The notes beneath the pieces are model-generated. The model was not told the origin of the DNA, did no database searches, and was given only the letters and a program-made list of their open reading frames with translations. The translations under genes and the position numbers were made by a program. A DNA stretch of 21,585 nt from the IMG/VR virus record IMGVR_UViG_3300042507_004948, positions 1-21,585 of that record. The stretch is one strand, 5' to 3'. Source of the stretch: a virus. Position 1 is the stretch's first letter. Every line of letters begins with the position of its first letter. Shown here piece by piece: positions 1 through 21,585 of this stretch.

Positions 1-69
1 AGTTTCGGCGCAATGCGTGGCATTGCTGCAATATTTCTCCGATTTCCCGCAAATCGTGATTATCGGCAC
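1..69 (-). CDS. possible 5' end of an unknown gene running off the left edge
   Basis: A GTG at 69 opens a frame that stays open to the window edge (23 codons). It would encode a start rich in cysteine (ICGK, YCSN, HCAE). There is an in-frame TAG two codons upstream, so the gene could not start earlier in this frame. No convincing Shine-Dalgarno sequence precedes it. A second possibility is an ATG at 23 in another frame, with GGAG about 12 bases upstream. Too little is visible to name a product, and the stretch could be non-coding. Confidence 0.25.
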   Translation of the reverse strand, partial: MPIITICGKSEKYCSNATHCAET

Positions 70-155
70 GGGCTACGCGGCAAACCGCCTACGATCGCGC
101 CTGAGGCGGGGGGCGCTTGACCCCTCCCGACACCCTGCCTCGGCGCTCGGACGGC

Positions 156-812
156 TCAGGCGGGCTTCCCCGCCGCCAGTAGGCCGCGCGCGGCCAAGCC
201 AAACGCGCCCCACCGCTGCCAGAACTCGCCGACAGGCACGGGATTGAGCGGGCGGTTCAGGTCGTCTACCCACTGGCCGTGTTCGTCGCGCGTCTGCTCG
301 TAGTAGCCGTTCGCGGTCGGCGCGGCCCGCGTCCCGCCGCGCAGGAGATCGGAGACGGCGATGAACCACGGAGACGGCCAGTGCTCGGGGTGCGACGGCG
401 GGCGCGGCGCGCCCCACCCGACCAACCGGTCGACGATCTCGCCGACAAGGAGCGGGTTCGCGGTCATCACCAGACGGCGGTCGGCCTCGCGCTCCTCGGC
501 GATCGCGTGCGCGCGCTCGGCGCGCTTCGCCTCGACGAGCTGCGCCTCGCGCGCCTTCGCGGTGCGGTCGACGAGTACGACCTTGCGCGGCTCGGGCTGC
601 GCCTCGTAGTACTTCAGGAACCGCCCCGCGATGAAGCGGCGCTTCTTCCCGCCGTCGTGGAGCGCGTACTGCTCCATCGCGGCCATCGCCCGAATGAAGT
701 CGAGCTGCGCGGCGTGGCGCATCCAGATCGCGCCGATCTCCGCGTGGTCGTCGCCGTCGCCGAAAAGCGCGGCCATCCGACCGCGCAGCGTCGCAAGTTC
801 CTCTTTCGTCAT
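156..812 (-). CDS. unrecognised 218-aa phage protein, possibly replication-related
   Basis: I do not recognise this protein. The ATG at 812 is well supported: AAAGGAGT (819-826) lies about seven bases upstream. The N-terminal third is helical and rich in W, F and Y (IWMRHAAQLDFIRAM, then RRFIAGRFLKYYEAQP). That pattern loosely recalls phage helicase-loader or loading-inhibitor proteins, where a short helical repeat of this kind precedes a disordered tail. This is only a resemblance. Residues about 78-118 are highly charged and probably a helix (KAREAQLVEAKRAERAHAIAEEREADRR). The C-terminal third has several W, P and G residues (HPEHWPSPWF, EFWQRWGAFG). The gene stands alone behind its own promoter (987-1016) and a leader of about 170 bases with a terminator-like hairpin, next to the repeat cluster at 1084-1206. 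That context fits a replication or early regulatory role but does not prove one. Confidence 0.75.
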   Translation of the reverse strand: MTKEELATLRGRMAALFGDGDDHAEIGAIWMRHAAQLDFIRAMAAMEQYALHDGGKKRRFIAGRFLKYYEAQPEPRKVVLVDRTAKAREAQLVEAKRAERAHAIAEEREADRRLVMTANPLLVGEIVDRLVGWGAPRPPSHPEHWPSPWFIAVSDLLRGGTRAAPTANGYYEQTRDEHGQWVDDLNRPLNPVPVGEFWQRWGAFGLAARGLLAAGKPA

Positions 813-880
813 GTGCCGACTCCTTTGTGTGCGGTCGCGCTTCCTGCGCCACCAACTGCGTTACGCACCCGTATCGACTC

Positions 881-914
881 CAAAAACCAAACACACACAC
901 GATAGTGTGTGTGT
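881..914 (-). terminator. leader hairpin with T-rich run: terminator or attenuator
   Basis: On the minus strand a perfect 10-bp stem (ACACACACAC, loop TATC, GTGTGTGTGT; 905-914 with 891-900) is followed at once by TTGGTTTTTGG. This is the form of an intrinsic terminator, though the stem is mixed A/C and G/T and so weaker than GC-rich ones. It lies between the promoter at 987-1016 and the gene starting at 812. It could therefore act as a leader attenuator or an antitermination target rather than a simple end-of-operon signal. Confidence 0.55.
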
Positions 915-980
915 GTCGGGAGTCCGTGTGCGATGTCTCCGAATGGACACGCGTCACCCGTGAAAACCACTTGTTGTGGT

Positions 981-999
981 GGGGGGGTTTTAGGGGGGG
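981..999 (+). other. G-quadruplex-forming G-runs
   Basis: The plus strand reads seven G, TTTTA, seven G. Each run can supply two GGG tracts, so a four-tract quadruplex is possible within 19 bases. A third run of six G follows at 1017-1022. The motif covers the spacer and -10 box of the minus-strand promoter, with G on the template strand, where a folded structure could hinder RNA polymerase or a replication fork. Confidence 0.45.
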
Positions 1000-1016
1000 A
1001 GGATTGCATCTGTCAA
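987..1016 (-). promoter_or_regulatory. sigma70-like promoter for the 156-812 gene
   Basis: On the minus strand a perfect -35 box TTGACA (1016-1011) is followed by an 18-base spacer and TAAAAC (992-987, 4 of 6 to TATAAT). Transcription would start near 980 and give a leader of about 168 bases before the ATG at 812. The spacer contains a run of seven C, the complement of the G-quadruplex motif. Confidence 0.6.
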
Positions 1017-1083
1017 GGGGGGAAAGTGGTCGGATTTCTGACTATGCATCAAATAGGTGGATATGCAGCGGAGGCGATTGCGC

Positions 1084-1099
1084 AAGTTGTGATTGCAGT
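1084..1099 (+). repeat. direct copy of the AAGTTGTG(A)TTGCAGT repeat
   Basis: AAGTTGTGATTGCAGT matches the arms of the inverted repeat at 1159-1196 except for one extra A. It continues into TTGCGTTGCAA (1099-1109), whose exact reverse complement is at 1196-1206. The copies look like binding sites (iterons or operators) for a phage protein. Confidence 0.7.
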
Positions 1100-1641: not shown

Positions 1642-1927
1642 TGGCCACCTCCTTCGGCTCGCGCATCTCCATCGCGACGGCGGGGCCGAACTCGCGGCAG
1701 ACCGACGCGGCGGCGTGGTCGCCCCGCGCCTCCATGATCTCGCCGAGTGCGTCCCGCAGGATCGCGGCTTCGATGCGGCAGTCGTCGGCGGTCGAGACGA
1801 CCCCGCGCGTGCGCGCGCCGAAGTCGCGGATCAGCCATTCGTGGTACAGGCGCGAAACGAGGTCGGTCGCCAGGTAGTCGCCGTTCGGCTTGCGCGGCTT
1901 CTGCTTGATCCCCTTGGGCTTAGGCAT
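1634..1927 (-). CDS. unknown 97-aa protein
   Basis: This is a small protein with a lysine- and proline-rich start (MPKPKGIKQKPRKPNGDY), then a predicted helical body (LVSRLYHEWLIRDFGARTRG and IEAAILRDALGEIMEARG). The ATG at 1927 overlaps the recT stop by eight bases, and the gene overlaps the next gene by eight bases, so all three are probably translated by coupling. A GGTGGAG stretch lies immediately upstream. I recognise no domain. Position beside recT suggests a role in DNA metabolism, without direct evidence. Confidence 0.75.
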   Translation of the reverse strand: MPKPKGIKQKPRKPNGDYLATDLVSRLYHEWLIRDFGARTRGVVSTADDCRIEAAILRDALGEIMEARGDHAAASVCREFGPAVAMEMREPKEVASA

Positions 1928-2795
1928 TCTCCACCCCCGTGATCACGCGCTTCCCCTCCGCTGTGAGCTTCCACCGCACTTCGATGGTGTGGCCAAATGC
2001 CGACTCGGCCTCGAGGCTGTGCATGAGGTCGCCGTCGAGCACGGCGAACGGAGCGTCGCAGCCGTCGACATCGACGCGGTAGATGGTCGTGCCGTTGGGG
2101 CGCTTCACCGCCGAGGCTTGCCACCCGCGCGCGACGAGGGTCAGCGTGCCGCCGCCATGCGGCGCGGGCGCGCGCTCGGCCTGTGGCACTGGCGACAACA
2201 GCGCCTCCGTGTCCGCGCGGCGCTCCTCGCGGGTCGGCGCGGCGGGCGCGGGGAGCGCCTTGCGCGGCGGCGGCGGCGCGTCCTCGACGATCTCCGTCTC
2301 GCCGTGCGCCTCGACATAGACGGGGGCCGCGCCGAGCGCGTCTGGGCAGTGCTGCTTGTAGCCCGCGCTGATGCAGCGGGCGAACAGCATGGCCTTCGGG
2401 TACTTGCGCCAGTTGTCGCCGCCGAGGCCCGCGCGCTTCGCGTCCTCGAGCGTGAACGAGGTGTCGCCAATCGGCTTCCACTTCCCGCCGTCCCGCCCGA
2501 GGAACTCGATGCGGCACTCGGTGTCCGTGGCAACCGATCGGTAGTCGTACTTGCCGCTCCGCTTGATCGCCGCCGCCATCAAGTTTGCCGCAAGGACGGC
2601 CTTTCCCTTGATGATGTGGAGGCCCGCCATCGCGTCGTAGTCGGCGAGGCCCAGGCCGCGCCCGATGATCAGCTTGGCGCACGCCGCCGCCTCGGACTGG
2701 ATGTCGGGGAACATCCCGCTCGCGCGGAAGACCTTGGCGACCGTCATCGGGTCGAGCTGCGCGTGCGGCGCGGGGGTGTGGACGAGATCACTCAT
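1920..2795 (-). CDS. recT: RecT-type single-strand DNA annealing recombinase
   Basis: Phage annealing proteins of the RecT family coat single-stranded DNA and pair it with a complementary strand in replication-linked recombination. The first ~165 residues show the family's pattern: a SGMFPDI segment near 26-32, IIGRGLGL (43-50), the IIKGKAVL stretch (61-68), a KRSGKYDYR segment (78-86), the WKPIGDTSFTLEDAK block (106-120) and WRKYPKAMLFARCIS (129-143) with CPD after it. A proline/alanine-rich linker (about 173-215) leads to a C-terminal domain of about 75 residues that I do not recognise. The ATG at 2795 overlaps the end of the 32-aa gene. No partner exonuclease (RecE or lambda Exo type) or single-strand binding protein is seen in the window. 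The family call is firm. The role of the C-terminal part is unknown. Confidence 0.85.
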   Translation of the reverse strand: MSDLVHTPAPHAQLDPMTVAKVFRASGMFPDIQSEAAACAKLIIGRGLGLADYDAMAGLHIIKGKAVLAANLMAAAIKRSGKYDYRSVATDTECRIEFLGRDGGKWKPIGDTSFTLEDAKRAGLGGDNWRKYPKAMLFARCISAGYKQHCPDALGAAPVYVEAHGETEIVEDAPPPPRKALPAPAAPTREERRADTEALLSPVPQAERAPAPHGGGTLTLVARGWQASAVKRPNGTTIYRVDVDGCDAPFAVLDGDLMHSLEAESAFGHTIEVRWKLTAEGKRVITGVENA

Positions 2796-3272: not shown

Positions 3273-4629
3273 TCGTCTCCGTGTTGCTGTAGTTCTGCGG
3301 CAGCGACAGCCCCTTGCCGTACATATCGAACAGCCGATCGAACGCGCGGACGAAATCGCCCTCGTCGTTGTTCGTGAAGGTAAATCTGCCGTTGTCGTCC
3401 GCGCGCCAATCGGTCGACCCGGCAAGCAGGCCAACGGCCTGACCGCCTTGCGCGATCGGGACAAGCTCCGCGAGGATCACCTCGTCGATGTACGCCGCCG
3501 CCGTCGTCAGGGCGGTCGTGCTTTCGATGTGCAGATAGGTGTCCTGCGGGATGTTGCGCGGCGACCTAATCGTGATGGAGGAAATCGTCCACGATGTCGA
3601 ACCGCTCGTCAGCGTGAGACTGCTCGCGAACGCGCCCGAGTCGATGATGTTACCCGACCCGTCCTTGACGCTGATTCGGATGACGCCAGTGCAGCCTGTG
3701 TCGATCTTGTACGCGACCGCGATCACATACGGCCTGTCGGGCGTGAGCCGCCCGAGCGTGCCGCCTGACGCGCCGAGCTGCTGGCGAATGTTGAACGCGC
3801 CGCTGCCCGCGTTCAGCTTGATCGACCGCGCGCCACGGTAGAAGGTTCCCGTCTCCGTCTGGAACTGCGTGCCCGCCGTGCCAGTGACGACCGCCCATTG
3901 GTCGGGGAGGTTGCTCGTCTGATCCTCAAAGTCGCTGTTCGTAAGTTGGTTCTCGTAGATGCCGCCCGCGTCGATCGCAGCGGAGACGGACACGACCCGC
4001 GTGAGCGTGCCGCTGCCCGCAGGGAAGCGGTAATCGAGCGGAGCGTACGCGGGCTGACCGCGAATCTCGAACACCTCCGCGCCGCGCGAGATCGCGCCGT
4101 TTGCCGCGTCCTGCACGCACCGCGCCTCGAGCGTCTCCGTGCGCACATTCGGCCAGTCGTTGGTCGACCCGAGCAGGATGTTCGGCGCGTCGAAGTTGTA
4201 CACGAACTGTCCGTTTCCGACATTCGTCCCGCCGTAGGTCGCGCTGGACTTCGTGATCGTCGTGCCGTTGATCTTCTCCGAGTCCGCGTCCATCTGGCGG
4301 ATGAGCCAGACCAGCGCGTCGGTGATCTGCCGCGACCGCATCGTGTTCGCCGCGCCCGAGGTGTTGGCCTCGGTGAAGCACATTTCGATGATCGTGCGCT
4401 CGGCGGCGGCGCGGACATCGTTGAGCACGCCGCCCGCCTCGGCGATGCGGCGCTCGATGTTGCCCGCAAGCACCTCGATCATGTACGCGTCGGTCGATGA
4501 GTACTCGAGCTGCACATTCGCAAGGAGCGTCTTCAGGTTGAGCTGATGCGTGCGCACCGCGTCCATCATGTAGACGAGCACGCCGAGCCGCGTGAATAGT
4601 CCGTTCGAGCCGTCGTAGGTGAGCGCCAT
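3250..4629 (-). CDS. virion surface protein with a carbohydrate-binding-like domain
   Basis: This 459-residue protein is the last gene of the late operon. Residues 1-225 begin with a segment seen in phage virion proteins (LFTRLGVLVYMMDAV) and a helical region. Residues about 226-390 look like a beta-sandwich carbohydrate-binding module of the CBM4/9 type: NQLTNSDFED, then QWAVV, GARSIKLNAGSG, PYVIAVAYK, GVIRISVKDGSGN and YIDEVILAEL. The last 60 residues (DFVRAFDRLFDMYGKGLSLPQN) resemble the N-terminal part in style, so the module may be an insertion. Position at the end of the tail genes fits a host-surface-binding protein on the tail tip or head, by inference. The ATG at 4629 lies three bases after the previous stop. 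Confidence 0.75.
   Translation of the reverse strand: MALTYDGSNGLFTRLGVLVYMMDAVRTHQLNLKTLLANVQLEYSSTDAYMIEVLAGNIERRIAEAGGVLNDVRAAAERTIIEMCFTEANTSGAANTMRSRQITDALVWLIRQMDADSEKINGTTITKSSATYGGTNVGNGQFVYNFDAPNILLGSTNDWPNVRTETLEARCVQDAANGAISRGAEVFEIRGQPAYAPLDYRFPAGSGTLTRVVSVSAAIDAGGIYENQLTNSDFEDQTSNLPDQWAVVTGTAGTQFQTETGTFYRGARSIKLNAGSGAFNIRQQLGASGGTLGRLTPDRPYVIAVAYKIDTGCTGVIRISVKDGSGNIIDSGAFASSLTLTSGSTSWTISSITIRSPRNIPQDTYLHIESTTALTTAAAYIDEVILAELVPIAQGGQAVGLLAGSTDWRADDNGRFTFTNNDEGDFVRAFDRLFDMYGKGLSLPQNYSNTETISDTLIA
3255..3275. terminator. perfect hairpin at the convergent gene ends
   Basis: CGATCAGCG (3255-3263) and CGCTGATCG (3267-3275) form a nine-bp stem with a TGT loop. The hairpin sits in the overlap of the two convergent genes, and the plus-strand stop codon (3270-3272) is in its right arm. 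Being symmetric it could work on both strands. Neither side has a clear T-run, so it may instead be a 3'-end stabiliser or just coding sequence. Confidence 0.4.
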
Positions 4630-5752: not shown

Positions 5753-6219
5753 GCCTCGACCCCGTAGAGCGTGACCGTGATGCGGTCTGAGTTCGCGGCG
5801 CTGCACCAGATGCGGTCGCCGCTAGTCATGTAGATCGGCCCCTCGTAGCGCGTGGTCGTCTTCCCGTTCGTCGTCACATCGTAGAAGATCGCGTTTGCCG
5901 TGGTCGGCGATTCGCCCGGGCGAGTGTGGTGAAGCCGAAAGTCCGTGTTGTTCGATGTGATCGACGACACATAGAGCACCTCGACGACCGCACTCGACCC
6001 GTTCGGCACTTCGTAAATCTGCTGAATGGCAGTCTTCGCGACCGTCCCCGAGAGCTTGCGGCGCGGGAACGATCTCCATGTGCGCGTGTTGTAGCCGCTC
6101 GGCAGCGTCGAAGCGCGCGAGTCGATGCCGCCGCCCGCCGCAGACGGCGCAAGCGTCTCCTCGCTCGCGGTCGGAGCGGTGAACGACGCGGATTCCTTTC
6201 CTGCTGCTGCTGCCATCAT
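5749..6219 (-). CDS. 156-aa virion-associated protein, beta-rich
   Basis: The first ATG (6219) overlaps the previous stop by four bases; the second (6216) overlaps by one, and either could be used. After an Ala/Ser/Thr-rich N-terminus of about 40 residues the protein is beta-rich. It has a C-terminal pattern known from small phage structural proteins: FRLHHTRPGE, an ANAIFYD strand, GDRIWCSAAN and a closing TVTLYGVEA. Such proteins are usually decoration or minor tail components of unknown exact role. Context places this one among distal tail genes. Confidence 0.65.
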   Translation of the reverse strand: MMAAAAGKESASFTAPTASEETLAPSAAGGGIDSRASTLPSGYNTRTWRSFPRRKLSGTVAKTAIQQIYEVPNGSSAVVEVLYVSSITSNNTDFRLHHTRPGESPTTANAIFYDVTTNGKTTTRYEGPIYMTSGDRIWCSAANSDRITVTLYGVEA

Positions 6220-6944: not shown

Positions 6945-7306
6945 CAGTCCGCGAGGATGTAGTACTGGAGGTTCACGGCGGCGGTGTTCGCGCGCGCGGT
7001 CGGCGCGGTCGTCCCGAGCCGCATGATCGCGGCCTCGCCCGCCTTGAGCTTGGCGAACGCGACGAATGTCGTCGTGCCCGTGCCGATCTCGACGAAGTTC
7101 GTCGGCCCAAGGTTGCGGAAGTACGCGTACCCGGGCGTCGAGACATCGGTGACGCTCAAGGCTTCGCCGCTCGTACCGATGGCCTGAACGCCCCCCGTCG
7201 CGTTCGTGCCAGTCATGTCGACGAGGAGAGTGCCAGGGTCTTCGCGGTGCGCGAGGAACCCCTTGGCGACGGTCATCTTGAGCTGAATGGTGATCTCGTT
7301 TGCCAT
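6944..7306 (-). CDS. 120-aa small virion protein
   Basis: The protein starts MANEITIQLKMTVAKG and has the segments TLLVDMTGTNATGGVQAIGTS, PGYAYFRNLG, TNFVEIG and LKAGEAAIMRL. This set (DMTG, QSIGTSEEAL, G.A.F.NLD.TN.V.I, LKAGE) recurs in many small phage structural proteins. The role is not established, and they probably line or decorate the tail. It overlaps both neighbours by one base, so it is translated by coupling. Confidence 0.65.
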   Translation of the reverse strand: MANEITIQLKMTVAKGFLAHREDPGTLLVDMTGTNATGGVQAIGTSGEALSVTDVSTPGYAYFRNLGPTNFVEIGTGTTTFVAFAKLKAGEAAIMRLGTTAPTARANTAAVNLQYYILAD

Positions 7307-8136
7307 CAGAAGTTCTCGCTCAATGCGTTGAAGTCGGTGAAGTCGGGGAACGGCTGCTCAAACGCCACGGTCGCCGCGCGCAGGATGCCGGGGCTTGCCT
7401 CGCTCAAGAGCACCTGTCCGTCCGCGCCACGGCGCGGGACTTGGATGAGGTGCATCTGCGCGTCCTGCGCGAAGTAGTGCGTGAGGCTCACCTTGTCGAG
7501 CGCGACACGCTGCGCCTTTGCGCCCTTGTAGACGACCTGTCCGCGCGGCGCGCCCTGAAAGTCGACCGCGTTGCGCGTGCCGCGCACGGCGCGGATGTTC
7601 AGGCTGCGGTCGGGGATCGTCTCGAGCGCGACCGTCTCGGTGAACTCGATCGTCGAGAAGAACGCGAGGACGCTCAGGGGAAGCCCTGCGCTGTCGACCT
7701 TGCGTCCGCCGATGTCCGATTGCAGGACATTTGGAGAGCCGAACGGGGGAAGCAGGAGTCCTGGGTTCGTGCGCCAGACATCGCGGAACTCCGCGCTCCA
7801 GTCGATCGAGAACTGGGTGTACCCGATCTCGAGCGGCTGAAACTGGAACGGTTCGCCGTTCTCGTAGTTCCACTCGAGGTTCCAGACTCCGCTACCGTCT
7901 TCGCGCGCGGTGATGCTGTACGAGCGCGCGTAGATGCCGATCTCCTCGGGGAACAGCGAGTTTCGCACGGGGATGTCGACGGAGCCGACAGTCGTTCCGA
8001 ACGCCTCGCGGACTCGCGCGGGAGTCGTGATCGGCACTGCGTCGTCCCAGATGGCGAATCGGCGCGTGGCGGAAATCTTGCCACCGCTGTAGTTCATGTT
8101 TCGCGTTTCCTGAAGTTCGATCGCTGCAAGTGCCAT
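7306..8136 (-). CDS. 276-aa putative distal tail or baseplate protein
   Basis: This gene follows the tape measure gene directly (one-base TGATG overlap), where siphoviruses encode the distal tail protein or tail-tip component. The sequence is beta-rich with many aromatic residues (VWNLEWNYENGEPFQFQPLEIGYTQF, FRDVWRTNPGLLLPPFG). I see no motif that fixes the family. The function is inferred from order alone. Confidence 0.6.
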   Translation of the reverse strand: MALAAIELQETRNMNYSGGKISATRRFAIWDDAVPITTPARVREAFGTTVGSVDIPVRNSLFPEEIGIYARSYSITAREDGSGVWNLEWNYENGEPFQFQPLEIGYTQFSIDWSAEFRDVWRTNPGLLLPPFGSPNVLQSDIGGRKVDSAGLPLSVLAFFSTIEFTETVALETIPDRSLNIRAVRGTRNAVDFQGAPRGQVVYKGAKAQRVALDKVSLTHYFAQDAQMHLIQVPRRGADGQVLLSEASPGILRAATVAFEQPFPDFTDFNALSENF

Positions 8137-10253: not shown

Positions 10254-10678
10254 CACACAAGCCAAGTCACGACAGGCGCAACGCCATCGGCGTTCGAGAA
10301 GTTGCAGGACAGCGTCGAGTCGGCGGTCTTGTCGACGGCGAATGCAAACCCGTTGAAGATGCAGTTCGCCGCAATCCGCGCGTCGTTGGTGCCCGCCGAC
10401 ACATCGAACAGGGTCAGGGTCAGCGCGGCGGTCGCAGTCGCGACGAAGAAGTTCGTCGTGGTCGTGCTAGCCGTCGTGTCCACCCCGGGCACGCCGCTCA
10501 GGCTTCCCGTGAGGTCGAGCATCCCGAGACGACGGCGACGGCCCGTGTCCGCAAAGCCCGTCAGATCGGACTCTGGGCGCTCGAGCGTCGCGCTATAGCT
10601 GCGGACTTGAACGACCGTGCCGCCCGAAGGCATTGTGACGGCTCCATCGTTCCCGATCAGATAGGTGTTGACAGGCAT
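10253..10678 (-). CDS. major tail (tube) protein
   Basis: This 141-residue protein is rich in T, S, V and A with strong beta character (GGTVVQVRSYSATLERPESDLTGF, MLDLTGSLSG, AALTLTLFDVS). The tube family normally has a beta-sandwich that stacks as hexameric rings. It lies after the tail terminator and before the chaperone and tape measure genes. A ribosome binding site (GAGGAAACACCCATG) is present and there is a ten-base spacer upstream, one of the few in this operon, as expected for a highly expressed gene. Its size matches short tube proteins. Confidence 0.75.
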   Translation of the reverse strand: MPVNTYLIGNDGAVTMPSGGTVVQVRSYSATLERPESDLTGFADTGRRRRLGMLDLTGSLSGVPGVDTTASTTTTNFFVATATAALTLTLFDVSAGTNDARIAANCIFNGFAFAVDKTADSTLSCNFSNADGVAPVVTWLV

Positions 10679-11605: not shown

Positions 11606-11970
11606 GATGCCACCTCAACCGCGTCGACGGCGGTCATGCTCAGGTGCGGCGCGGCCTGAGTCAGCCCCAGTTCGCCAGGGTTCACCGCGCCGATGACGCG
11701 GTAGTTCCGCGCCGTCGTCGCGAGGCTGTCGCGCACCTCGTCGTCGATGCGGACATCCACCGCGCCCTCGAGGTAGATCGTGCAGGAGGTGCGCCCGTCC
11801 ATGCGGCCTTGCGCGACATCGCTCGACTGCGTCGTCGGCTGCACGAACCCCTTGACGCAGCACACCGCGGCGTAGGTGCGCGTGACCTCGCCATCGGACG
11901 CGACTCCGACCGTGGGTCGGTAGACCCACAGCTTGCGCCCGAACCGCGCGACGAGGCCGCCGATGCTCAC
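11602..11970 (-). CDS. head-tail joining (stopper) protein
   Basis: A GTG at 11970 overlaps the adaptor gene's stop as GTGA and gives 122 residues. The pattern LVARFGRKLWVYRPTVGVASDGEVTRTY, then VKGFVQPTTQ, YLEGAVDVRIDDEVRD and NYRVIGAVNPGE is that of the phage head-tail joining family (SPP1 gp16 / HK97 gp9 type). That family is a small beta-barrel that closes the portal after packaging. No ATG is available nearer the N-terminus. Confidence 0.75.
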   Translation of the reverse strand: MSIGGLVARFGRKLWVYRPTVGVASDGEVTRTYAAVCCVKGFVQPTTQSSDVAQGRMDGRTSCTIYLEGAVDVRIDDEVRDSLATTARNYRVIGAVNPGELGLTQAAPHLSMTAVDAVEVAS

Positions 11971-12776
11971 CGAAGCCTCCGATACGGGCCAAGCAGCCCC
12001 TCGATCTCGCGGCTCATGTCCTCGCCCGAGCGCCTCGAGTACGAGTAGCCGCCAAGCGATTCGGACGCGACCGAGGAATCCCGCGTCCGATCGCGGAAGA
12101 AGTTCGCCGTCATCGTCAGTGTCGCGTGCACGACATCGGCGGGGATCACCGCATAGCCGCCCGTGTAGTCCACAAGCACGCTCTGGTACTGGTCGAGCGA
12201 TCGCCCGTAGACGATGCCGCGCTCCTCGTCCAGATGCCAATCGCCGATGGCCTCCGTGTACCCGAGCAGCGCCGCGCCCGCCTGCCGCGTGTCCACGCCC
12301 GCCGCGCGCGCGAGGTAGCGGCTCGGCGCGGCCACGCCCGCCGTGGCGCTGAAGCCCGCCACGGCGTTCGCAGCCGCCGCGAGGAGCGCCGAGGTCGGAT
12401 AGGTGTCGAGCGATAGCACATTGTCCCAGACGGCCCCAGACGCATCCATGCGCCGCAGTTTGAGCGACCCGTCGAGCACTGACGCTGTCGCGATCACATC
12501 GGTCGTGTTCGTGCTCTTGACGGTCAGCATGATGTCGCGGGCGACCCCGACGAACGCCACCTGAGTCACGGGCTGATTGCGGAGGACGAGCCGCTCGCCG
12601 CCGCCGTCCTTGACCTCGTAGTACCGCTGCGACACGAAGACCCGCCCGCAGTAGCGGTCGACCCACTCGGACGCGCGTTCGAGGCAGGAGTCGAGGATCG
12701 CGTCGGTGTCCTGAGAGGTGATCCCGAGGAACGCCTTTGCGTCGGAGAGCGATGCGTGTGCGAGTGCTGATGCCAT
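11967..12776 (-). CDS. head-tail connector adaptor (gp6-like)
   Basis: The N-terminus has the adaptor pattern: SDAKAFLGITSQDTDAILDSCLERASEWVDRYCGRVFVSQRYYE. This is the L.FLgI...D..L...I..A......CGR form of gp6-type connector proteins that form a ring below the portal. At 269 residues it is longer than the usual 100-200. The central part has beta strands, and the C-terminus has VHATLTMTANFFRDRTRDSSV and LLGPYRRLR, as expected of the family. The start overlaps the previous stop by one base (TGATG). Confidence 0.8.
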   Translation of the reverse strand: MASALAHASLSDAKAFLGITSQDTDAILDSCLERASEWVDRYCGRVFVSQRYYEVKDGGGERLVLRNQPVTQVAFVGVARDIMLTVKSTNTTDVIATASVLDGSLKLRRMDASGAVWDNVLSLDTYPTSALLAAAANAVAGFSATAGVAAPSRYLARAAGVDTRQAGAALLGYTEAIGDWHLDEERGIVYGRSLDQYQSVLVDYTGGYAVIPADVVHATLTMTANFFRDRTRDSSVASESLGGYSYSRRSGEDMSREIEGLLGPYRRLR

Positions 12777-12994: not shown

Positions 12995-13995
12995 TCGCTG
13001 GGCCTCCCCTCGTCGGTGTGCTTGGTGCTGTACTGGTGGATCGCCTTGAGGTCTTCTCCTGGCCATGTGATCACCAGCTGGAGATGCCCGATGCGGACGC
13101 GCGGCGTGGCGCAGATGCGCCCCGTCTTCGCGAACGCCTTCCAGAAGAAGATGTCATCGTCGACGCGCCCGTCGCCCCACTCGCCGGCCGCGTTCGGCTG
13201 CGAGACGAACCACGGCTTCTCCATCCGCTTGAGCGCGTCGACGCGGATCAGCGACAGGCCGAAGTGCCCCGTCTCGCAGTCGACCACCTCGCGGTGAAAC
13301 ATCTCGGCGGGGACATGGGTGATGCGCTGGCCCTTGTCGTTCTTGATCGACAGAAGCACCGTGTCGCGGTCGCGCCCGATCTGAAGCGGGAACAGCGCGT
13401 CCACATCGGGGTTCGACTCCATGATCTGCCACAGGCGGATGATGTCCTGCTCTTCAAAGATCGAGTCGAAGTCGATGGTCAGGATGTACTTGCGCTCGCC
13501 CGAGTTCACGATGCCTTCCATCATGCGTTGGAGGCACTGGCCCCAGAAGACGCCCGTTGCCTTCGTGAAGTCGATGCCGAGGCGTGCGCAAGCCATGTGG
13601 GTCGCTCCCATCGTCTCAGTCCACGCGATGCGCGGGAGCGACATGATCGCGGCCACCTCTTTCATAGGGAGCGTCGGCCTCGGGCGCTTGCATCGGCGCG
13701 CAAGCACCGAGAGCCAGCCGTCGCCGTCCGACCACGACACGCCCGTCGCGCCTCCGAGGATGTCCCACCCTGCGAGGCTCAACACCTTCGACAGCTTCTC
13801 GCGGTTCCAGATCGACTTGTACTCGCCGCGCGCGAGGACGGCCTCCTCGACGCTGCCAGTGCCGTCCGTGTACATCCGAATCGCCGCGTCGAAATCGGGC
13901 ACATCGAAGCGCGCCTCGTCGCCCTGCACGCCTTTCGCCACATCGAGTTCCGTACCGCTTGCCGCGCGGGCAAGCACATCGTTTCGCTCTGACAT
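12979..13995 (-). CDS. GT-A type glycosyltransferase
   Basis: The 338-residue protein carries the metal- and nucleotide-sugar-binding DxD motif in YILTIDFDSIF (about 170-180), followed by helix EEQDIIRLWQIM and DVDALFPLQIGRDRD, as in GT2-like enzymes. Further features are HFGLSLIRVDALKRMEKPWF (244-263), an acidic DDDIFFWKAF (279-288) that would hold the catalytic base, and a late histidine (IGHLQLVITWPGE) that can bind metal. The first 115 residues are a separate, unrecognised helical part. The ATG at 13995 follows GGAGGT by four bases; an upstream ATG (14094) has no such signal. It lies between the decoration-type and connector genes. The sugar and acceptor are unknown; a virion protein, phage DNA or host surface glycan are all possible. 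Confidence 0.8.
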   Translation of the reverse strand: MSERNDVLARAASGTELDVAKGVQGDEARFDVPDFDAAIRMYTDGTGSVEEAVLARGEYKSIWNREKLSKVLSLAGWDILGGATGVSWSDGDGWLSVLARRCKRPRPTLPMKEVAAIMSLPRIAWTETMGATHMACARLGIDFTKATGVFWGQCLQRMMEGIVNSGERKYILTIDFDSIFEEQDIIRLWQIMESNPDVDALFPLQIGRDRDTVLLSIKNDKGQRITHVPAEMFHREVVDCETGHFGLSLIRVDALKRMEKPWFVSQPNAAGEWGDGRVDDDIFFWKAFAKTGRICATPRVRIGHLQLVITWPGEDLKAIHQYSTKHTDEGRPSECATY

Positions 13996-14154: not shown

Positions 14155-14577
14155 TCAGATGTCGGCGAGATGCGCCGCGCCGTTCTGCGCGGCGGTCACG
14201 GGCGCATCCGCCGCGAGGCCAAGCTCGACGGCGATGATGGGCTGCGTGGTCGCGTGCAGGGTGAAGGTCGGCTTGAGGTAGCGCTTGCGGCCACGAAGGT
14301 CGACCTCGTAGATGAGGCGCGCCTCGGTCGTGGCGACCGTCACGCTGGAGGGCGTGTACGCCGTGCCAGCCGCAGCAGCCGCGATGGGCGACCAGGTGCT
14401 GTTGTTGTCCGAGTCCTCGAGGGTGTTGTTCGTGAGAACGGTCGAGAGGCCCGGGTTGCCCGTCGAGATGCACAGGATGCGCGCGAAGCTGAAGCCACGG
14501 CAGTCGATGCTGGCCGTGAGCTGCGAGGCGTTCGTCGCGCCGATTGCGGCGATCTGGAACTTGGTGTTCGGCTTCAT
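14155..14577 (-). CDS. putative capsid decoration / head-associated protein
   Basis: The 140-residue, T-, A- and S-rich beta protein follows the capsid gene directly. It shows a pattern recurrent in small phage head proteins: IDCRGFSFARILCISTG, TLEDSDNNSTWSPI and RGRKRYLKPTFTL. These are normally annotated as head decoration or structural proteins of unknown detail. A good ribosome binding site (AGGAAGGAAAGATTCCATG) precedes the ATG at 14577. Hairpins on both sides (14599-14625 and 14104-14134) suggest its expression is adjusted separately. Confidence 0.65.
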   Translation of the reverse strand: MKPNTKFQIAAIGATNASQLTASIDCRGFSFARILCISTGNPGLSTVLTNNTLEDSDNNSTWSPIAAAAAGTAYTPSSVTVATTEARLIYEVDLRGRKRYLKPTFTLHATTQPIIAVELGLAADAPVTAAQNGAAHLADI

Positions 14578-14636: not shown

Positions 14637-16007
14637 TCAGAGGGTGAGCTTGATGACTGCGCCGCTGGCGGACGCGGAGCCGACATTGGAGTTGACGATG
14701 TCGAGGCGCTCGGTGGCGCGGACTGCGATGAGATCGTTGGCCCACGCGTCGCCGCCCGTGTTCGAGAAGTCGACGGCCGTCTGGCGGCGATCGCCGAAGT
14801 ACGAGGACAGGCGAAGGTCGCCGATGAAGGCGAAGGTCGCGCCGCCCGACTCCGTCACGGGGATCACCTGAGTCCAGACAACGGGGTAGCCGAGGAACTG
14901 CGGGGTGCGCAGTCCGTCCGCCAGCGTCTGCATGGTGTTGCCGCCAGCGGTCGCCGCGAGACGCTCGAAGATGCCGTGCCAAGCCGACTTGGAGCAGTAG
15001 ATCTTCACATTGTTGCGCGAAGCGGCCCACGCGGGAAGCTTGCGGAACGCCGCGACGAGGTCGGCGAGGGCAACGCCCGAGTAGGCGGTGACCGATCCCA
15101 TGTCGGCCTGCTGGAAGGTCGCGTCAGAGAGGATCGTGTCGAGTCCGACGATGCCGCCAAACGCGGAAGTGCCGTCGCCGAGGAAGCCCGCGCGGTCTTC
15201 CGCGAAGGCAAGCGCCTGAGCGATCTCGTCAGCGGCCTCGTCGCCGAGGTTCACGAGCGAGTCCTCGTTGAGTTCGCTGGAGATCTCCGTGAGAACGCCG
15301 AGCTTCTTGGCGACGAGCTTGTTGGAGCCGAACACCTGATCGCTCTTGGTGATCGGTGCGCCCTCGCCGATCCAGTACGCGGTGAGGCCACCAGTGCGCT
15401 TGTTCACGACGCGCGTGTCGCTCGACATCGGGATCGTGCGAGACTCGCGACGGAACACGCCATACTCCTCGCGGAGCGTGACGAGCTCGCTGTCCATCTC
15501 CTCGGGGACGAGGAAGCCACCCGCCGAGTTGATGCCCTCGACATGGGCCTTCTCGCGAACGAGAGGCACGCCGTTCGTCTTGCACCACTCGAGCGACTTG
15601 GTGTGTCCCATCGCGGCGGCGCAGAAGCGACCGAAGCGGTAGGCGGAGTCGATGCCCTCGCGGGTGTTCTTGAACGACTTGAGCTTGCCGTACGCGCGGG
15701 GAGCCTCGACGCGCGGCTGCGCGGCGACGGCCTTGGTGTTCACGATGTCGGCGAGCGCGGCCTTGACGGCGCTTGCGATCTTCTCTTCGGTCATCTCGTC
15801 CTCCTTGGCCATGTCCTGCTCCACTGCGGGAGCGGCTGCGGTGATCACGATGTCAAGCGATTCGGGGTCGACGGCCATGCCAGCCTCGTCCACGATCATG
15901 TAGTTCTCCAGGATGAGCTTCTTCTGGGCAATGACGCCCGGCTCACCCTTGATGCGACCCGCGCGCTGAAGGGCGCTGCGGAAGTCGTCTGTGTTCATGG
16001 TCTTCAT
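14637..16007 (-). CDS. major capsid protein (HK97 fold)
   Basis: This 456-residue protein has the HK97 organisation. Residues 1 to about 105-115 form a charged helical delta domain used as internal scaffold and removed by the protease. The mature part includes GINSAGGFLVPEEMDSELVTL (159-179), the E-loop-like region, LGVLTEISSELNEDS, DRAGFLGDGTSAFGGIVGL and a C-terminal strand set ending SGAVIKLTL. The phrases GG.LVP.e....l...l and FL.GdG....GI.G are family hallmarks. The ATG at 16007 has AGGA eight bases upstream. The upstream in-frame sequence overlaps the protease gene in another frame and is not used. It builds the icosahedral shell together with the protease and the decoration protein. 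Confidence 0.9.
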   Translation of the reverse strand: MKTMNTDDFRSALQRAGRIKGEPGVIAQKKLILENYMIVDEAGMAVDPESLDIVITAAAPAVEQDMAKEDEMTEEKIASAVKAALADIVNTKAVAAQPRVEAPRAYGKLKSFKNTREGIDSAYRFGRFCAAAMGHTKSLEWCKTNGVPLVREKAHVEGINSAGGFLVPEEMDSELVTLREEYGVFRRESRTIPMSSDTRVVNKRTGGLTAYWIGEGAPITKSDQVFGSNKLVAKKLGVLTEISSELNEDSLVNLGDEAADEIAQALAFAEDRAGFLGDGTSAFGGIVGLDTILSDATFQQADMGSVTAYSGVALADLVAAFRKLPAWAASRNNVKIYCSKSAWHGIFERLAATAGGNTMQTLADGLRTPQFLGYPVVWTQVIPVTESGGATFAFIGDLRLSSYFGDRRQTAVDFSNTGGDAWANDLIAVRATERLDIVNSNVGSASASGAVIKLTL

Positions 16008-16087: not shown

Positions 16088-16768
16088 TCAGTCGATGTAG
16101 ATCGCGCCTCGCCGTCGAGCGATCTCGCGGCGAACGATCCCGTCGATGTTGATCGGCGCGCGCTTCACCTCGGTTGAGGGCGCGGGAATGCTCACGGTCA
16201 CCACCACGCGCTTGGGAGCCTCGATGCCGAAGAACCGCTTCGCCGCGACTGGCGACACGATGCCCTTCTTCACGGCGGTGATCAGCGCGTCGGGGTTCGA
16301 CTGAAGCGGCGCGAGGCTGACCTCGAGCAGCTTCCACCGCGAGTAGATCGTGTGCGCGCGGTCGCCGTACTTCTTGCGGTCGACCTCGCTCGCGCGGCGC
16401 GTGCCGCCGTCCTCGGGCACATAGCCGACAGACACGCCAGAGACAACGCCCTGACCGACGAGCGCGGCGGCGACCTCGGGGAAGAACTCGCCGCCGTAGC
16501 CCTCAGGCCGCTGCGCGAATGTGAAGTCGCCGACGATCGTGGTGTCCTTCCGCTTCAGGCCGTTGCACTTCCCCACGGGCTGCGCGTAGTCGTGGTTCCA
16601 GAAGAGGATCGGGTTGCGCTCAAACTCCGTGGCGTTCATGCCCTGCGGGATTAGCACCTCGCCGTCACGGTCGAGCGTCTCGGCGGTGATGACGGCGGTG
16701 AAGCCCTTCGGCGTGGCGCGGAGTTCTGCGGGAAGCGCCTTGCGGACGATCGTCTCGGTGATGCTCAT
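16088..16768 (-). CDS. prohead protease (HK97 family)
   Basis: The 226-residue serine protease matures the capsid by cutting off the delta domain. The family features are visible: GFTAVITAETLDRDGEVLIP near the start, the histidine in NPILFWNHDYAQPVG (H59), the nucleophile region GVVSGVSVGYVPEDG (S113) and LLEVSLAPLQSNPDALI (147-163), the usual L.EvS.v..paNp.A strand. The start overlaps the portal gene's stop by four bases. It lies just before the capsid gene, as usual. The 80-base spacer to the capsid start shows only that gene's ribosome binding site. Confidence 0.9.
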   Translation of the reverse strand: MSITETIVRKALPAELRATPKGFTAVITAETLDRDGEVLIPQGMNATEFERNPILFWNHDYAQPVGKCNGLKRKDTTIVGDFTFAQRPEGYGGEFFPEVAAALVGQGVVSGVSVGYVPEDGGTRRASEVDRKKYGDRAHTIYSRWKLLEVSLAPLQSNPDALITAVKKGIVSPVAAKRFFGIEAPKRVVVTVSIPAPSTEVKRAPINIDGIVRREIARRRGAIYID

Positions 16769-19596
16769 TGGATTCCTGCCTCAAGGTTGATGCGGCGGCG
16801 CTCGGCCTCGATGTCCCCCGACTCCTCGATCTCGCGGATTTCGCGCTCGAGCGCATCGCTTAGAACGGGCTGCATCGAGCAGCGACAGTTCGGATGCAAC
16901 GGTGGCCCCTTGATGTCCTCGTAGTCGAGCACCATCTCGCCGCCGTCCGCGCCGTTCAGCACCTCTCCGCGTGCGTAGAACGAATCGCCGAGGCCGATTG
17001 ACTTCTGTGCGTACGCCTTGCTTGCCGCCTCGCAGAACTCACACGGATCGGGCGCGAGCAACCAAGTCTTGCCCTGCACCAGTCCCGTCGCCGTCCACGC
17101 GTCGACCTCGGCGGTGCGGGCGGCGCGCTGCGCCTCCGTCCGCGCGACCGTGCGCGCGCGCGACCACGACCCGTCCTGATCCTTCTGGGAGTCCGCCCAT
17201 GTCTGCACGCGGGTCGCAAGCTCGTCGACCGTCTCACCCTTCTCGAGTCCCTCGCCGAGCACCTCGCGCACGCGGACAGATGTCTGCTCGGCCACGCCCG
17301 ACGCGGTGCGCCGCGCGAGGCGCACGGACTCCGTCTCGGCATATGCGCGAAGGTCGGCGCGCTCGACATCGAAGTCGACGGTGGTGGCAACCTTGGCGAC
17401 CGTGTCGATGCCGAGGTCGACACCGACCGAGATCGCGTCACGAAGGTACGGCGCGAGCGCGTCGACGAGTGCCCGCTGATACTGGCGCGACCGAAGCAGC
17501 GCCTCGGCGCGGACGATCAGCTCGCGGGACGGCGCGCCCGCCTTCGCCAGTTCGTCGAGCACGGCCTTCACCTGGTCGTCGAACACGCGCGAGACGCTCG
17601 CGGCCATCGTGCGCTCCGCGTCGTTGATCTCCCGGCCCTCGCTCTCGGCGCTCTTGCGGTGTATCCCATCGGATACAGCCGATTCCCACATCGCCTTCTG
17701 CGAGATGCGCTTTGGCTCGGCGCAGCCGCAGCCGCAGGACTTCGCGGCGGGCGTGGGCGGGCGCGAGGCGAGAACCTCGTCGAGCGTCTTCCCCTCCGCG
17801 CACATCGAGTACGCGATCGCCACCGCCTGATCCTGCGCGTAGCCCTCGGCGAGAAGCGTCTGAATTTTGCCGCTCACGCAGTCGCCGAGCGCGTCCTTTG
17901 TCTCCACGGCTTTCGCGGCCACGGTCGGCTCCTCGGCCTCTGGCGGCGCGTCGAGCGGCCCGACAAGGCCGTCAGGCGCGGAATCTTGAGCCACAACGGG
18001 CGCGGCCTCGCGAGGTACGATCGGGTCGAAGATCGCGTCGATCGTCTCGCGCGGGATTGCGGGGAACGCCGCCGCCGCCATCGCGCGAACGCTGTCGATC
18101 GGGAGAAGGCCGTTCGCCGCGCTCGTCGCCAGTTCGACAAGGCTCGTCACCTGAGCGCCGTTGAGCGCGGTCGCGGCAAGGTCTTCCTGCGCGGACGGCT
18201 CTGGCGCTGCGGGCGACTGCGTGGGCGCGGCGGGAATCGGCGCTGCAACTGGCATCGGAACGCCCGCGCCCAGAGACTGACCGCCGATCATCGGACGGTT
18301 CGCCATCGGATCGGGCAGAGGCTCAAGCCCTTCCTGCTGCCTCGCCTCGTTGATGGTGAGGATGCCGCCCGCCACATAGGTCGTGCGCTTCGCCGTCTCC
18401 TGCGCCTCGTCCGCGCGCACGGGGTTGTCGTACGCGAGGAACGCATCGTCCTCGATGCCGAACAGCGGGAGGAGCTGCTGATTGAGCACCTCCTCGTCCA
18501 TGCGGAGGAGCGGGAGGATGGTCGTTTCCTTCCACGACGCGAATCCGACCGTTGCGCTTGCGAGGTTCGGGTCGTTCGCGCGGAGCATCGACACGGGCAC
18601 GCCGAACACGGCGGCGATCTCCTCGACGATCTCCTCGCGGCCTTGCAAGTCCTTCGGCGGGAACTGCAGTGGCTTCAGGTCGACCTCGCCAGTGACCGCG
18701 AGGAAGCGGCCCGTCTTGTTCGTGCCGCGCAGCTTCGTCTCGACCTGTGCCGTGAACCGCTCAAGTTCCTCGTCGGACGCGTTGCCCTTGCTGACGAGGA
18801 GATAGTCGGGCCGCGACTTGTTCGCGAAGAAGTGGTAATCCATCTCATGCAGCGCGACATTGCTTGTCACCGCGCCCCACGCCGCCTCGACCTTGCCGAG
18901 GCCGTAGTAGATGTCGCGCGGGTTCGGGTACTTGAAGTGGATCACCTCGTCTGGCGTGAAGTCCTGACGCTGCGCGTCGTTGCGCCCGTACTCGTAACCC
19001 TTGACCAGTTCCTCGCCGCGCAGCGGGTTGCCCGGCACGATGCGCATCCACTGCGACGGCATCGTCCACAGTTCGACAGGAACATTCAGCGAAGGATCGA
19101 GCACAGGGTGGAGGTACGCGTTCCCCGTCAGCTCCATGTACAGCACGCGCAGGACGGTCGCGTCGAAGCCGTTCTGGTAGGGATTGACCTTCGCGAGGAG
19201 GTTGAGGAGCGGATGCGTGTCCGTGACGACCTCGTAGTCGTCGCCGTATTCCGCTGCCTTCATCATCGCGTAGCGCGACGGGAGCTGCGCGAGGTCGCCC
19301 GACAGGTACGCCTTCGTGCGGCGACCCGTCCTGCGCGTGTTCCATGCCTTCGTGCCAGCCGATCGGTTGCGCACATACAGGCGCAGCGGCTGCGAGGCGA
19401 CCGAGATTGCGTTGAGCCGCGCCGCGGCGTAGACCCAACTGCGGTTCTCGACGACCGCGCGGTGATAGTCGAACGGAGGCGGCACATACTCGCGCCCAAT
19501 CAAAGTCGCGGTGCTCGCGACCTCGTACCGCTGCGGCTGATCGTTCGTGTACGCGGCCTTGCCGAGGATGGACTTGATGCGGTCGATGATGCTCAT
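16765..19596 (-). CDS. portal protein fused to a MuF-like head-morphogenesis domain
   Basis: One frame of 943 residues from ATG at 19596, which overlaps the terminase stop by four bases. Residues 1 to about 430 are an HK97-type portal: NRSWVYAAARLNAISVASQPLRLY, VLYMELTGNAYLHPV, PDEVIHFKYPNPRDIYYGLG, VFGVPVSMLRAND, and NEARQQEGLEPLPD. A Pro/Ala-rich linker follows (442-475), then LNGAQVTSLVEL (478-489), a motif found after many phage portals. A CVSGKIQTLLAEGYAQDQAVAIAYSMC module (573-599) and a KSCGCGCAEPKR patch (619-630) come next. Residues about 750-912 form a Mu gpF/SPP1 gp7-like domain ending CEFCEAAS and GPPLHPNCRCSM, a probable zinc site. The two functions are usually on separate genes. 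Confidence 0.85.
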   Translation of the reverse strand: MSIIDRIKSILGKAAYTNDQPQRYEVASTATLIGREYVPPPFDYHRAVVENRSWVYAAARLNAISVASQPLRLYVRNRSAGTKAWNTRRTGRRTKAYLSGDLAQLPSRYAMMKAAEYGDDYEVVTDTHPLLNLLAKVNPYQNGFDATVLRVLYMELTGNAYLHPVLDPSLNVPVELWTMPSQWMRIVPGNPLRGEELVKGYEYGRNDAQRQDFTPDEVIHFKYPNPRDIYYGLGKVEAAWGAVTSNVALHEMDYHFFANKSRPDYLLVSKGNASDEELERFTAQVETKLRGTNKTGRFLAVTGEVDLKPLQFPPKDLQGREEIVEEIAAVFGVPVSMLRANDPNLASATVGFASWKETTILPLLRMDEEVLNQQLLPLFGIEDDAFLAYDNPVRADEAQETAKRTTYVAGGILTINEARQQEGLEPLPDPMANRPMIGGQSLGAGVPMPVAAPIPAAPTQSPAAPEPSAQEDLAATALNGAQVTSLVELATSAANGLLPIDSVRAMAAAAFPAIPRETIDAIFDPIVPREAAPVVAQDSAPDGLVGPLDAPPEAEEPTVAAKAVETKDALGDCVSGKIQTLLAEGYAQDQAVAIAYSMCAEGKTLDEVLASRPPTPAAKSCGCGCAEPKRISQKAMWESAVSDGIHRKSAESEGREINDAERTMAASVSRVFDDQVKAVLDELAKAGAPSRELIVRAEALLRSRQYQRALVDALAPYLRDAISVGVDLGIDTVAKVATTVDFDVERADLRAYAETESVRLARRTASGVAEQTSVRVREVLGEGLEKGETVDELATRVQTWADSQKDQDGSWSRARTVARTEAQRAARTAEVDAWTATGLVQGKTWLLAPDPCEFCEAASKAYAQKSIGLGDSFYARGEVLNGADGGEMVLDYEDIKGPPLHPNCRCSMQPVLSDALEREIREIEESGDIEAERRRINLEAGIQ

Positions 19597-20771
19597 ATGA
19601 CTCTCATCGTCATCGGCGGTCGCGCGCGGCGGGAATGCACCGCAAGCGCGAGCGCACATACGCCGTCGTCGTGCCCCGCCGTCGCCTCGTACGAGACGCT
19701 TCTCCCCGAGTATCGGTAGCCGAACGACTCCAGTTCCGACCTCAGCCACCCCTCGGGGAAGCGGATGTCGGCGGTTTGGATGGAGACTTGCAGCCCCTCC
19801 ATAAGTTGCTGCTTCGACTGCGAGGTGAACTTGAAGCCGACCGCGCGGCGACACACCTTGGTCAGGTCTTCGACGATCGGGTCGCCCACGCCCGTCGAGT
19901 CGATCATCGCGGGAGCCGCGCCGATCATGTGCGCGAGGCGCTCGCGCGTCACCGACCACGGCGACTGCCACCGCTCGAGGCGGCAGACCGCGCCGTCCCT
20001 GTCGATGGCCACGGCCACCGTGTAGTCCTGGCTCTTCGCGAGGTCAACGCCCCAGTGCGCGGGCACGGCGACCGACATCGGCCCGATGCACGCGCGGATC
20101 GCGTCGAGGCCGAACGGGTTGCCGCCGTCCTCGGCGGGAATGCCCTCGTACTCCTGCGCGAAGACCTCGGGCGGAAGCGTGCGCCGAGCGGCCTCGACCT
20201 CGTCCGGGTCGATGTGCGGATTCTGGCGCGTTCCGATGCGGAAGGCCCGCATCGTGCCAGTGGTGTCGCCTTCCGCCTCGGTGAACAGGCGGTGGAAGTC
20301 TCCCGTTCCCTTCGGCGTACCGAGGAAGAGCGCGGAACCCTTGCGGTCGGCGAGCGTCGGGCGCGCCGCGTTGCGCCACCATTCCAACAGGTGCGGGACG
20401 AAGCCCGCCTCGTCCACGACGATCAGGTCGTAGTCGCGGCCTCGGCCCGCGTCGATGTCCTCCAGCGACCAGAAGTCGATGAGTCCGCGAGTCGTGAGTT
20501 CGATCCGCTTCTCTACGCGATCCATGCGAGCCGTCACGGGCGCGAGCGCCCGCTCAATGTCGCGCATCGGGTCGGCGAGGTACTTGTAGGTCGGCGCGAA
20601 CCACCCGACCTTGCGGCGGTTGATCGCGGCGCGCTGCGCCTTGACGCGCCCGTAGGTCGTCTTCCCCCACCGTCGACCGATCTCAAGGACGCTGAACCGC
20701 GCGAGCGCCTTGTCGACCGTCAACTGCGACGGGTGCAGGATGGAGGACAGCGGTTGCAGCCGAACGATCAT
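19593..20771 (-). CDS. terL: terminase large subunit
   Basis: The 392-residue packaging motor and nuclease has a Walker A motif GRRWGKTT (32-39), a Walker B LIVVDEA (116-122), and a coupling motif FLGTPKG (149-155). The RNase-H-like nuclease domain has its acidic residues in GVDLAKSQDY (D243), MIDSTGVGDP (D291) and TAGHDDGVCALALA (D368, D369). The ATG at 20771 overlaps the small subunit's stop by four bases. At 392 residues it is at the short end of the family but both domains are complete. It docks on the portal encoded next. Confidence 0.9.
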   Translation of the reverse strand: MIVRLQPLSSILHPSQLTVDKALARFSVLEIGRRWGKTTYGRVKAQRAAINRRKVGWFAPTYKYLADPMRDIERALAPVTARMDRVEKRIELTTRGLIDFWSLEDIDAGRGRDYDLIVVDEAGFVPHLLEWWRNAARPTLADRKGSALFLGTPKGTGDFHRLFTEAEGDTTGTMRAFRIGTRQNPHIDPDEVEAARRTLPPEVFAQEYEGIPAEDGGNPFGLDAIRACIGPMSVAVPAHWGVDLAKSQDYTVAVAIDRDGAVCRLERWQSPWSVTRERLAHMIGAAPAMIDSTGVGDPIVEDLTKVCRRAVGFKFTSQSKQQLMEGLQVSIQTADIRFPEGWLRSELESFGYRYSGRSVSYEATAGHDDGVCALALAVHSRRARPPMTMRVI

Positions 20772-21130
20772 GCGTCATGCTGCACCTTCGGCGCGATCTC
20801 CTCGATCGTCACGACCTCCTCGCGAATCGTCTGCTCGGCCTTGTCGCGCTGCCCGAGGTACTGCTTGCCGAGCCAGATCAGGAGCGGGACGCTGCCCTTC
20901 ATGGCGAGGTCGACTTGCTTTGTGCGCAACTGGTCGGCGAGTCGGTTCCTCCCGAGTGCCACCTCCGCTGAAAAATTGGCGGTGATCGTGTTGCGGTGAA
21001 CGCCAAGAATCCCCGCGATTTCCTCGACCGTGCAGCCGCGCGCCGCCATCTCTTCGATGGATTTTCTAGGCAGTTCGACCTTCGGCCTTCCACGCTTGCG
21101 CTTCGGCTCAGGCTTCGGCTTCTTGCTCAT
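20768..21130 (-). CDS. terS: terminase small subunit (DNA recognition)
   Basis: This 120-residue protein lies directly before the large subunit. A basic, AT-hook-like start (KRKRGRPK) leads to a helix-turn-helix (IEEMAARGCTVEEIAGILGVHRNTITANF, about 25-53). This is followed by ALGRNRLADQLRTKQVDLAMKGSVPLLIWLGKQYLGQRDK, a conserved helical stretch of small terminase-like phage proteins. It would recognise the packaging site on the phage genome. Its start overlaps the end of the methyltransferase gene by 23 bases. Confidence 0.8.
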   Translation of the reverse strand: MSKKPKPEPKRKRGRPKVELPRKSIEEMAARGCTVEEIAGILGVHRNTITANFSAEVALGRNRLADQLRTKQVDLAMKGSVPLLIWLGKQYLGQRDKAEQTIREEVVTIEEIAPKVQHDA

Positions 21131-21584
21131 TCAGGAGGCTCCTGATCTGCGCCGCGACATCTGCGGCAAGGTGCGCGGGAGTGATCCCGCCGTCGACCCA
21201 CCAATCCTCGAACGGCGCACGGGCCGCGCCCTTGCCGATGCACACATCGGGCGCGACAAGTTCGTACCCCGCGTCGCGCAGGATGCCGCGCATGGCCGAG
21301 CGTATCGCGGGGTTCCCACGGTAGAGGTCGTGCTCGACCGTGATGCAGTCGAAGCGGATCAGGTCGAGCGGAAGCCTGACGAGCGCGGCAAGCGTCAGCA
21401 TCGGCGGCTCGAGGTCGAGGCTCAGGTAGCCGATGCGCCCGTCTCGCGCGAAGTCGAACAGGATCGCCCGCCAGTCCTGCGCGAAGAAGTCGCCGTAGAC
21501 CGCGTGCGCCTTGCGCTCGGCGCGCAGCGCGTCCGCGTGCTCGATGTCGCACAGGATGCCAGTCCACCCAATGTCCTCAAGCGC
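21108..21584 (-). CDS. FkbM-type methyltransferase, 5' end outside the window
   Basis: The frame is open from the right edge, so only the last 158 residues are seen. They match the C-terminal part of FkbM-family S-adenosylmethionine-dependent methyltransferases: IGYLSLDLEPP (the yLSlD.Ep strand), LPLDLIRFDCITVEHDLYRG, MRGILRDAGYELVAPDV and a closing FEDWWVDGG. FkbM enzymes O-methylate sugars or natural products in bacteria. The gene stands before terS in the late operon. It may modify the glycan made by the phage's own glycosyltransferase (12979-13995), or a host surface sugar. Confidence 0.8.
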   Translation of the reverse strand, partial: ALEDIGWTGILCDIEHADALRAERKAHAVYGDFFAQDWRAILFDFARDGRIGYLSLDLEPPMLTLAALVRLPLDLIRFDCITVEHDLYRGNPAIRSAMRGILRDAGYELVAPDVCIGKGAARAPFEDWWVDGGITPAHLAADVAAQIRSLLNEQEAEA

Positions 21585-21585
21585 C

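Follow-up and report, generated by a model that had tools for sequence, protein, structure and literature searches.

Restriction-site avoidance is well known in viruses. Complete or almost complete elimination of a site has been reported in about one tenth of viral genomes, nearly always at orthodox Type II sites and more often in non-temperate phages (Rusinov et al., 2018, PMC6286503). Here we analyse the IMG/VR virus record IMGVR_UViG_3300042507_004948, taken whole (21,585 bp, hereafter the window), in which the tetramer CCGG is nearly absent and which belongs to a phage family at the high end of this known biology. As in the avoidance described for double-stranded DNA phages (PMC6286503), short palindromic orthodox Type II sites are lost almost completely and no modification is needed. 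Unlike that case, the number of lost words is high for a 34-kb genome, close clades differ in the sets they lack (including a reciprocal loss of ACGT and AGCT), and the host was not identified. What is less usual is that close sister clades have switched word sets more than once.

By exact count the window, with a guanine-plus-cytosine (GC) content of 66.4%, holds 12 copies of CCGG. An initial annotation, made by eye, had placed all 12, six at their exact positions and the rest one to four bases off. It had estimated that base composition predicts about 200 or more; the computed value is 262, and a maximal-order Markov model predicts 149. It had also named a codon shuffle returning about a dozen copies, or an equal depletion of GGCC and CGCG, as grounds for dropping the claim. 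Neither was found: shuffling synonymous codons gave 123 ± 7.5 copies where the tested codons contain 11 (z = -15), with a minimum of 104 over 300 shuffles, and the depletion stands under both models. CCGG is short in all three codon phases (observed/expected 4/54, 5/31 and 2/38 by codon shuffle). The accompanying statement that related palindromes are common holds for CGCG and GCGC, which like TCGA are not depleted, but less well for GGCC, which is mildly low (122 against 150 by Markov model, 106 against 159 by codon shuffle).

ACGT, missed by the initial annotation, is a stronger and more complete case than CCGG: the window contains none, against 70 expected by the Markov model, 63 by codon shuffle (z = -14) and 72 by the greedy search described below. 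The two lost tetramers are exactly the recognition sites of HpaII/MspI-type (CCGG) and MaeII-type (ACGT) Type II enzymes; no such enzyme was located here. We scanned palindromes expected 15 times or more, taking an observed/expected ratio below 0.1 as strong depletion. This gave 18 partly overlapping words for the window, 25 for the near-complete relative L006 (L121 and L122) and 21 for L003 (L119 and L120). Among 12 distant control contigs, ten gave 0 to 2 words and two low-GC ones gave 9 and 6. The maximal-order Markov model gives misleading expectations when a word contains one that is already purged, so we used a greedy conditional search, which with overlap removed left eight eliminated words in the window: CCGG (12/150), ACGT (0/72), GGACC (that is, GGWCC; 0/53), GRCGYC (6/67), RCATGY (0/27), CGGCCG (2/30), CCGCGG (2/28) and GRGCYC (1/28). 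The window and L006 together yielded 17 non-overlapping eliminated words, and five synonymous shuffles of the same pair yielded none. The depletions persist after control for composition and are independent of amino-acid and codon content.

The same signal extends to words that are not palindromes. Of the 5- and 6-mers in the window's clade, 1,549 non-palindromic ones were testable, and the eight most depleted were GGACC, GAGCCC, GAGACC, CACGAG, GGCACC, ACATGC, ACCTGC and GACGCC. These fall in the Type II recognition sites GGWCC, GRGCYC, GGTCTC, CACGAG, GGYRCC, RCATGY, ACCTGC and GRCGYC, mixed members of degenerate sites included. Avoidance of non-palindromic words where they form part of a Type II site points to enzymes and away from mutation.

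For scale, we applied our word search to stretches of up to 34.6 kb from other phages. It returned six eliminated words in T7 (including GATC, 4/120, and CCAGG, 2/74), five in N4, seven in D29, five in Juno112, three in phi29 (including GGCC, 0/22), two in lambda and none in Valrath. Compared with T7, N4, phi29 and D29, L006 has 11 such words and the 21.6-kb window eight, with two 4-bp words lost outright. The Halorubrum phage Hardycor1, a halovirus (L155, 1-34600), showed at least 30 strongly depleted words, many of them non-palindromic (CATCG 2/116, CCTCC 2/108, GATGC 0/50, AGCTC 0/49), a pattern that may not be due to restriction.

The losses are shared by close relatives and change between sister clades. 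Relatives at 84-95% capsid identity (L001-L007, L012, L013) share the CCGG and ACGT losses. In L008-L011, which have 71-73% capsid identity and the same GC content, CCGG is normal (130/114 in L008), as is ACGT in three of the four (46/51 in L008; 14/26 in L010). Across the wider terminase family (L032-L110, 70-97% identity) the losses are patchy: ACGT is gone in some clades and AGCT in others (0/116 in L059, L061 and L054 together; 0/108 in L098, L102, L106 and L109 together), and near-loss of CCGG is confined to the window's clade and the L003 group. In a reciprocal test, the window keeps 0 of 126 aligned ACGT sites of L059, L063, L066 and L071, and these four keep 0 of 60 aligned AGCT sites of the window; with L042, which lies at a similar distance and has no AGCT purge, the window shares 11 of 22 AGCT sites. 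The terminase tree requires at least eight changes for ACGT, six for AGCT and two for CCGG, counts that do not allow for recombination. Recombination is evident: the L003 capsid is 95% identical to that of the window, yet its terminase belongs to another clade. AGCT is absent or nearly so in L059, L061, L063, L066, L071, L098, L102, L106 and L109, all of which keep ACGT and CCGG, and some of the AGCT-lacking sister phages are also without GGNCC or CCWGG. Distant low-GC relatives found in metagenome-assembled genomes (MAGs) lack several 4-bp palindromes as well (CATG, CTAG, GGCC and TCGA in L113; CCGG and GGCC in L115).

Taken together, these results make it highly probable that long exposure to many orthodox Type II restriction enzymes in its host population selected the lineage for loss of their recognition sites. 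Unmethylated phage DNA entering a cell would be cut at recognition sites; variants in which a synonymous change removes a site would survive better, and newly arisen sites would be removed again. The word of each often-met enzyme would thereby be driven towards zero (CCGG, ACGT, GGWCC, GRCGYC, RCATGY, CGGCCG, CCGCGG, GRGCYC and others), while sister lineages that met other enzymes would have purged other words (AGCT, GGNCC, CCWGG, RCCGGY). We infer that nucleases were the selecting agent and that they came from the host population. The number of purged words suggests that the enzymes are spread over many strains or hosts, each carrying a subset, and that the ancestors of the phage repeatedly met bacteria with many restriction enzymes. 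The initial annotation had likewise favoured restriction, and this part is strongly supported; its focus on one palindrome and one CCGG enzyme was too narrow for a large, lineage-specific set of words. The other eliminated words rule out one CCGG enzyme as a full explanation.

The residual sites bear on this explanation in both directions. Of 11 residual CCGG sites in the window, L006 retains none, against a retention of 48-71% for other tetramers; ongoing selection against newly arisen sites predicts such a turnover. L003 keeps five of ten, so these sites are not all transient, and this is one of several results that count against selection by host enzymes. Cognate CCGG restriction-modification genes were not found and no host was identified. 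The HpaII/MspI-like genes that the initial annotation had proposed to seek in candidate hosts did not appear, with RE_HpaII in 0 of 248 genomes of the only candidate family. That lead is a weak one: a contig with a 75% terminase match sits in a Rhodobacteraceae MAG of more than 300 contigs, and this candidate host eliminates none of the phage's words. Lastly, we know of no enzyme matching the eliminated words GCGWCGC, CCGNCGG and GGCNGCC.

Other routes to a host gave little. Searching for the terminase in the class of the MAG (385 genomes) and in its family (296 genomes) returned only distant matches besides the MAG itself. RE_HindVP was absent from the 248 family genomes, a result that is uninformative since no control gave a match. 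The window has no tRNA genes for host matching, and a relative gave one doubtful call inside its capsid gene. The HIP1 sequence GCGATCGC, sought as a cyanobacterial mark, occurs only five times in the window.

Within the restriction explanation, the CCGG loss could be the sum of several 6-bp specificities (RCCGGY, WCCGGW, GCCGGC, TCCGGA and so on) rather than the work of one 4-bp CCGG enzyme, a possibility that we regard as the less probable of the two. The clade that we label B avoids RCCGGY (15/191) and WCCGGW (14/106) and spares CCCGGC and CCCGGG, and CCCGGG is not avoided in L003 and L012 (13 against 17 expected). Moreover, 10 of the 12 residual sites of the window are preceded by C or followed by G (CCCGG/CCGGG); in the sister clade L008-L011 the share of CCGG sites so flanked is 30% (binomial p ~2e-4 from these shares). 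On the other side, nearly every CCGG context is depleted in the window, including GCCGGA (0/46) and CCCGGC (5/30), which lie outside RCCGGY and WCCGGW, and it is simpler to assume one CCGG cutter with weak activity on CCCGG. Since nearly all contexts are depleted, we favour for the window one 4-bp cutter with a flank preference; we cannot assign the tolerance of CCCGG to a particular known enzyme.

A mutational origin, which the initial annotation had offered as an alternative together with base modification, is very improbable. It would have CCGG and ACGT methylated at cytosine by a host or phage enzyme and then deaminated to CTGG/CCAG and ATGT/ACAT. In its favour, ACAT/ATGT is the most enriched tetramer relative to codon shuffles (1.79-fold), and in codon counts from the window and one relative, aspartate before GT is encoded by GAT 60 times out of 61 and by GAC once (87% elsewhere). 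However, C-to-T is the only synonymous escape in xAC|GTx, so this enrichment fits either process and does not discriminate. The same counts show that proline before G, as the initial annotation had remarked, is rarely CCG (7 of 266, against 405 of 496, or 82%, elsewhere) and becomes CCC (65%) far more often than CCA (18%) or CCT (15%). Arginine after C shifts from CGG (2%, 28% elsewhere) to CGC (73%), which is impossible by deamination, and threonine before T is never ACG (0 of 124, 64% elsewhere). Transversions thus dominate at degenerate positions rather than the C-to-T and G-to-A changes expected from decay of 5-methylcytosine, so deamination is not the main cause and the replacement spectrum already contradicts this origin. 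Furthermore, at least eight unrelated words were removed together, and words without CG (GGWCC, RCATGY and GRGCYC, with AGCT in sister clades) were purged equally fully. No C5 cytosine methylase was present in 23 of the 24 relatives' records searched, the window itself being a fragment; the sole one lies in L125 (the record of L099), bases 558-1520.

Slightly less probable again is that the phages encode nucleases directed at host DNA and have cleared their own genome of the sites. Phages with their own endonucleases exist, and several genes here have no known function, but a 34-kb genome would need enzymes for at least a dozen specificities, sister clades would have had to swap the entire set, and the genes searched included no recognisable nuclease of this kind. 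An artefact of composition, codon usage or assembly, to which 66% GC and a strong codon bias might have lent credence, we regard as already refuted and as the least probable of all, given that codon shuffles never fell below the minimum above and produced no eliminated word, that relatives of equal GC have normal counts, and that the same purge is found in contigs from many separate metagenome records.

If selection by host enzymes is correct, the phage genome lists the restriction enzymes used by its hosts, and the sister clades are natural replicates of site purge and regain. It would then become testable how many restriction systems a phage lineage can evade solely by changing its sequence, and hosts of uncultured phages might be easier to assign by comparing the purged words with motifs found methylated in long-read metagenomes. 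More speculatively, and with the balance of probability somewhat against it, the purged-word set may record, with fast turnover, the restriction specificities present in the pangenome of an uncultured host, with clade-own sets of up to ~20 words, several changes within 70-97% terminase identity, and recombined genes aligned to the new set. Restriction specificities of the hosts could in that event be read from phage sequence alone, including CCGNCGG, GGCNGCC, GCGWCGC and the flank rule of CCCGG tolerance.

The record is classed as linear, and nearly all of its genes are encoded on the minus strand (Table 1); connectors and tail genes are also present. Megablast of the window against phage records gave no match, and tblastn of the terminase, capsid and portal gave only matches below 60% identity with no host signal, as did the early genes. 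No close isolate emerged from these searches. Among the genes searched in the near-complete relatives, part of their gene set, no integrase was seen; a non-temperate lifestyle is common in phages that avoid restriction sites but is no precondition for it.

Table 1. Coordinates in the window of the recognised genes and of the residual CCGG sites, with the state of each site in aligned relatives.
Feature	Position	Strand	Remark
RecT-like annealing protein	1920..2795	-	by homologue L122:6895-7794
Head-tail connector (gp6-like)	11967..12776	-	
Major capsid protein (Phage_capsid), HK97-type	14637..16007	-	
Prohead protease (Peptidase_S78)	16088..16768	-	
Portal protein with C-terminal Mu-F-like domain	16765..19596	-	
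Terminase large subunit	19593..20771	-	basis of family tree
CCGG (ACCGGT)	426..429		ACTGGT in L006
CCGG (CCCGGC)	3419..3422		kept in L003
CCGG (CCCGGG)	5916..5919		kept in L012; lost in L003, L005, L006
CCGG (CCCGGG)	7131..7134		kept in L003, L012
CCGG (GCCGGG)	7388..7391		kept in L005, L012
CCGG (CCCGGG)	10485..10488		lost in all aligned relatives
CCGG (GCCGGC)	13184..13187		kept in L003, L012
CCGG (CCCGGG)	14451..14454		kept in L003, L012
CCGG (CCCGGC)	15938..15941		kept in L033 only
CCGG (CCCGGC)	17632..17635		CGCGGC in all seven relatives
CCGG (CCCGGC)	19032..19035		kept in L003, L012, L033
CCGG (TCCGGG)	20204..20207		lost in all aligned relatives

Close relatives encode RecT-like, Gam/Gp157-like and RusA-like proteins. 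In L006, a ParB-like domain is fused to an N6/N4 DNA methylase (L121:11034-12209, minus strand); the window ends before the matching place. The contig ends of close relatives overlap, by 797 bp at 94% identity in L006 and by 135 bp in L003, which gives circularly permuted genomes of ~34.6 kb and ~33.6 kb, respectively. The window represents about 60% of a small tailed phage genome of ~34 kb. The two copies of the overlap in L006 (L121:1-797 and L122:14650-15446) are only 94% identical, so either strain variants were joined or the repeat has diverged.

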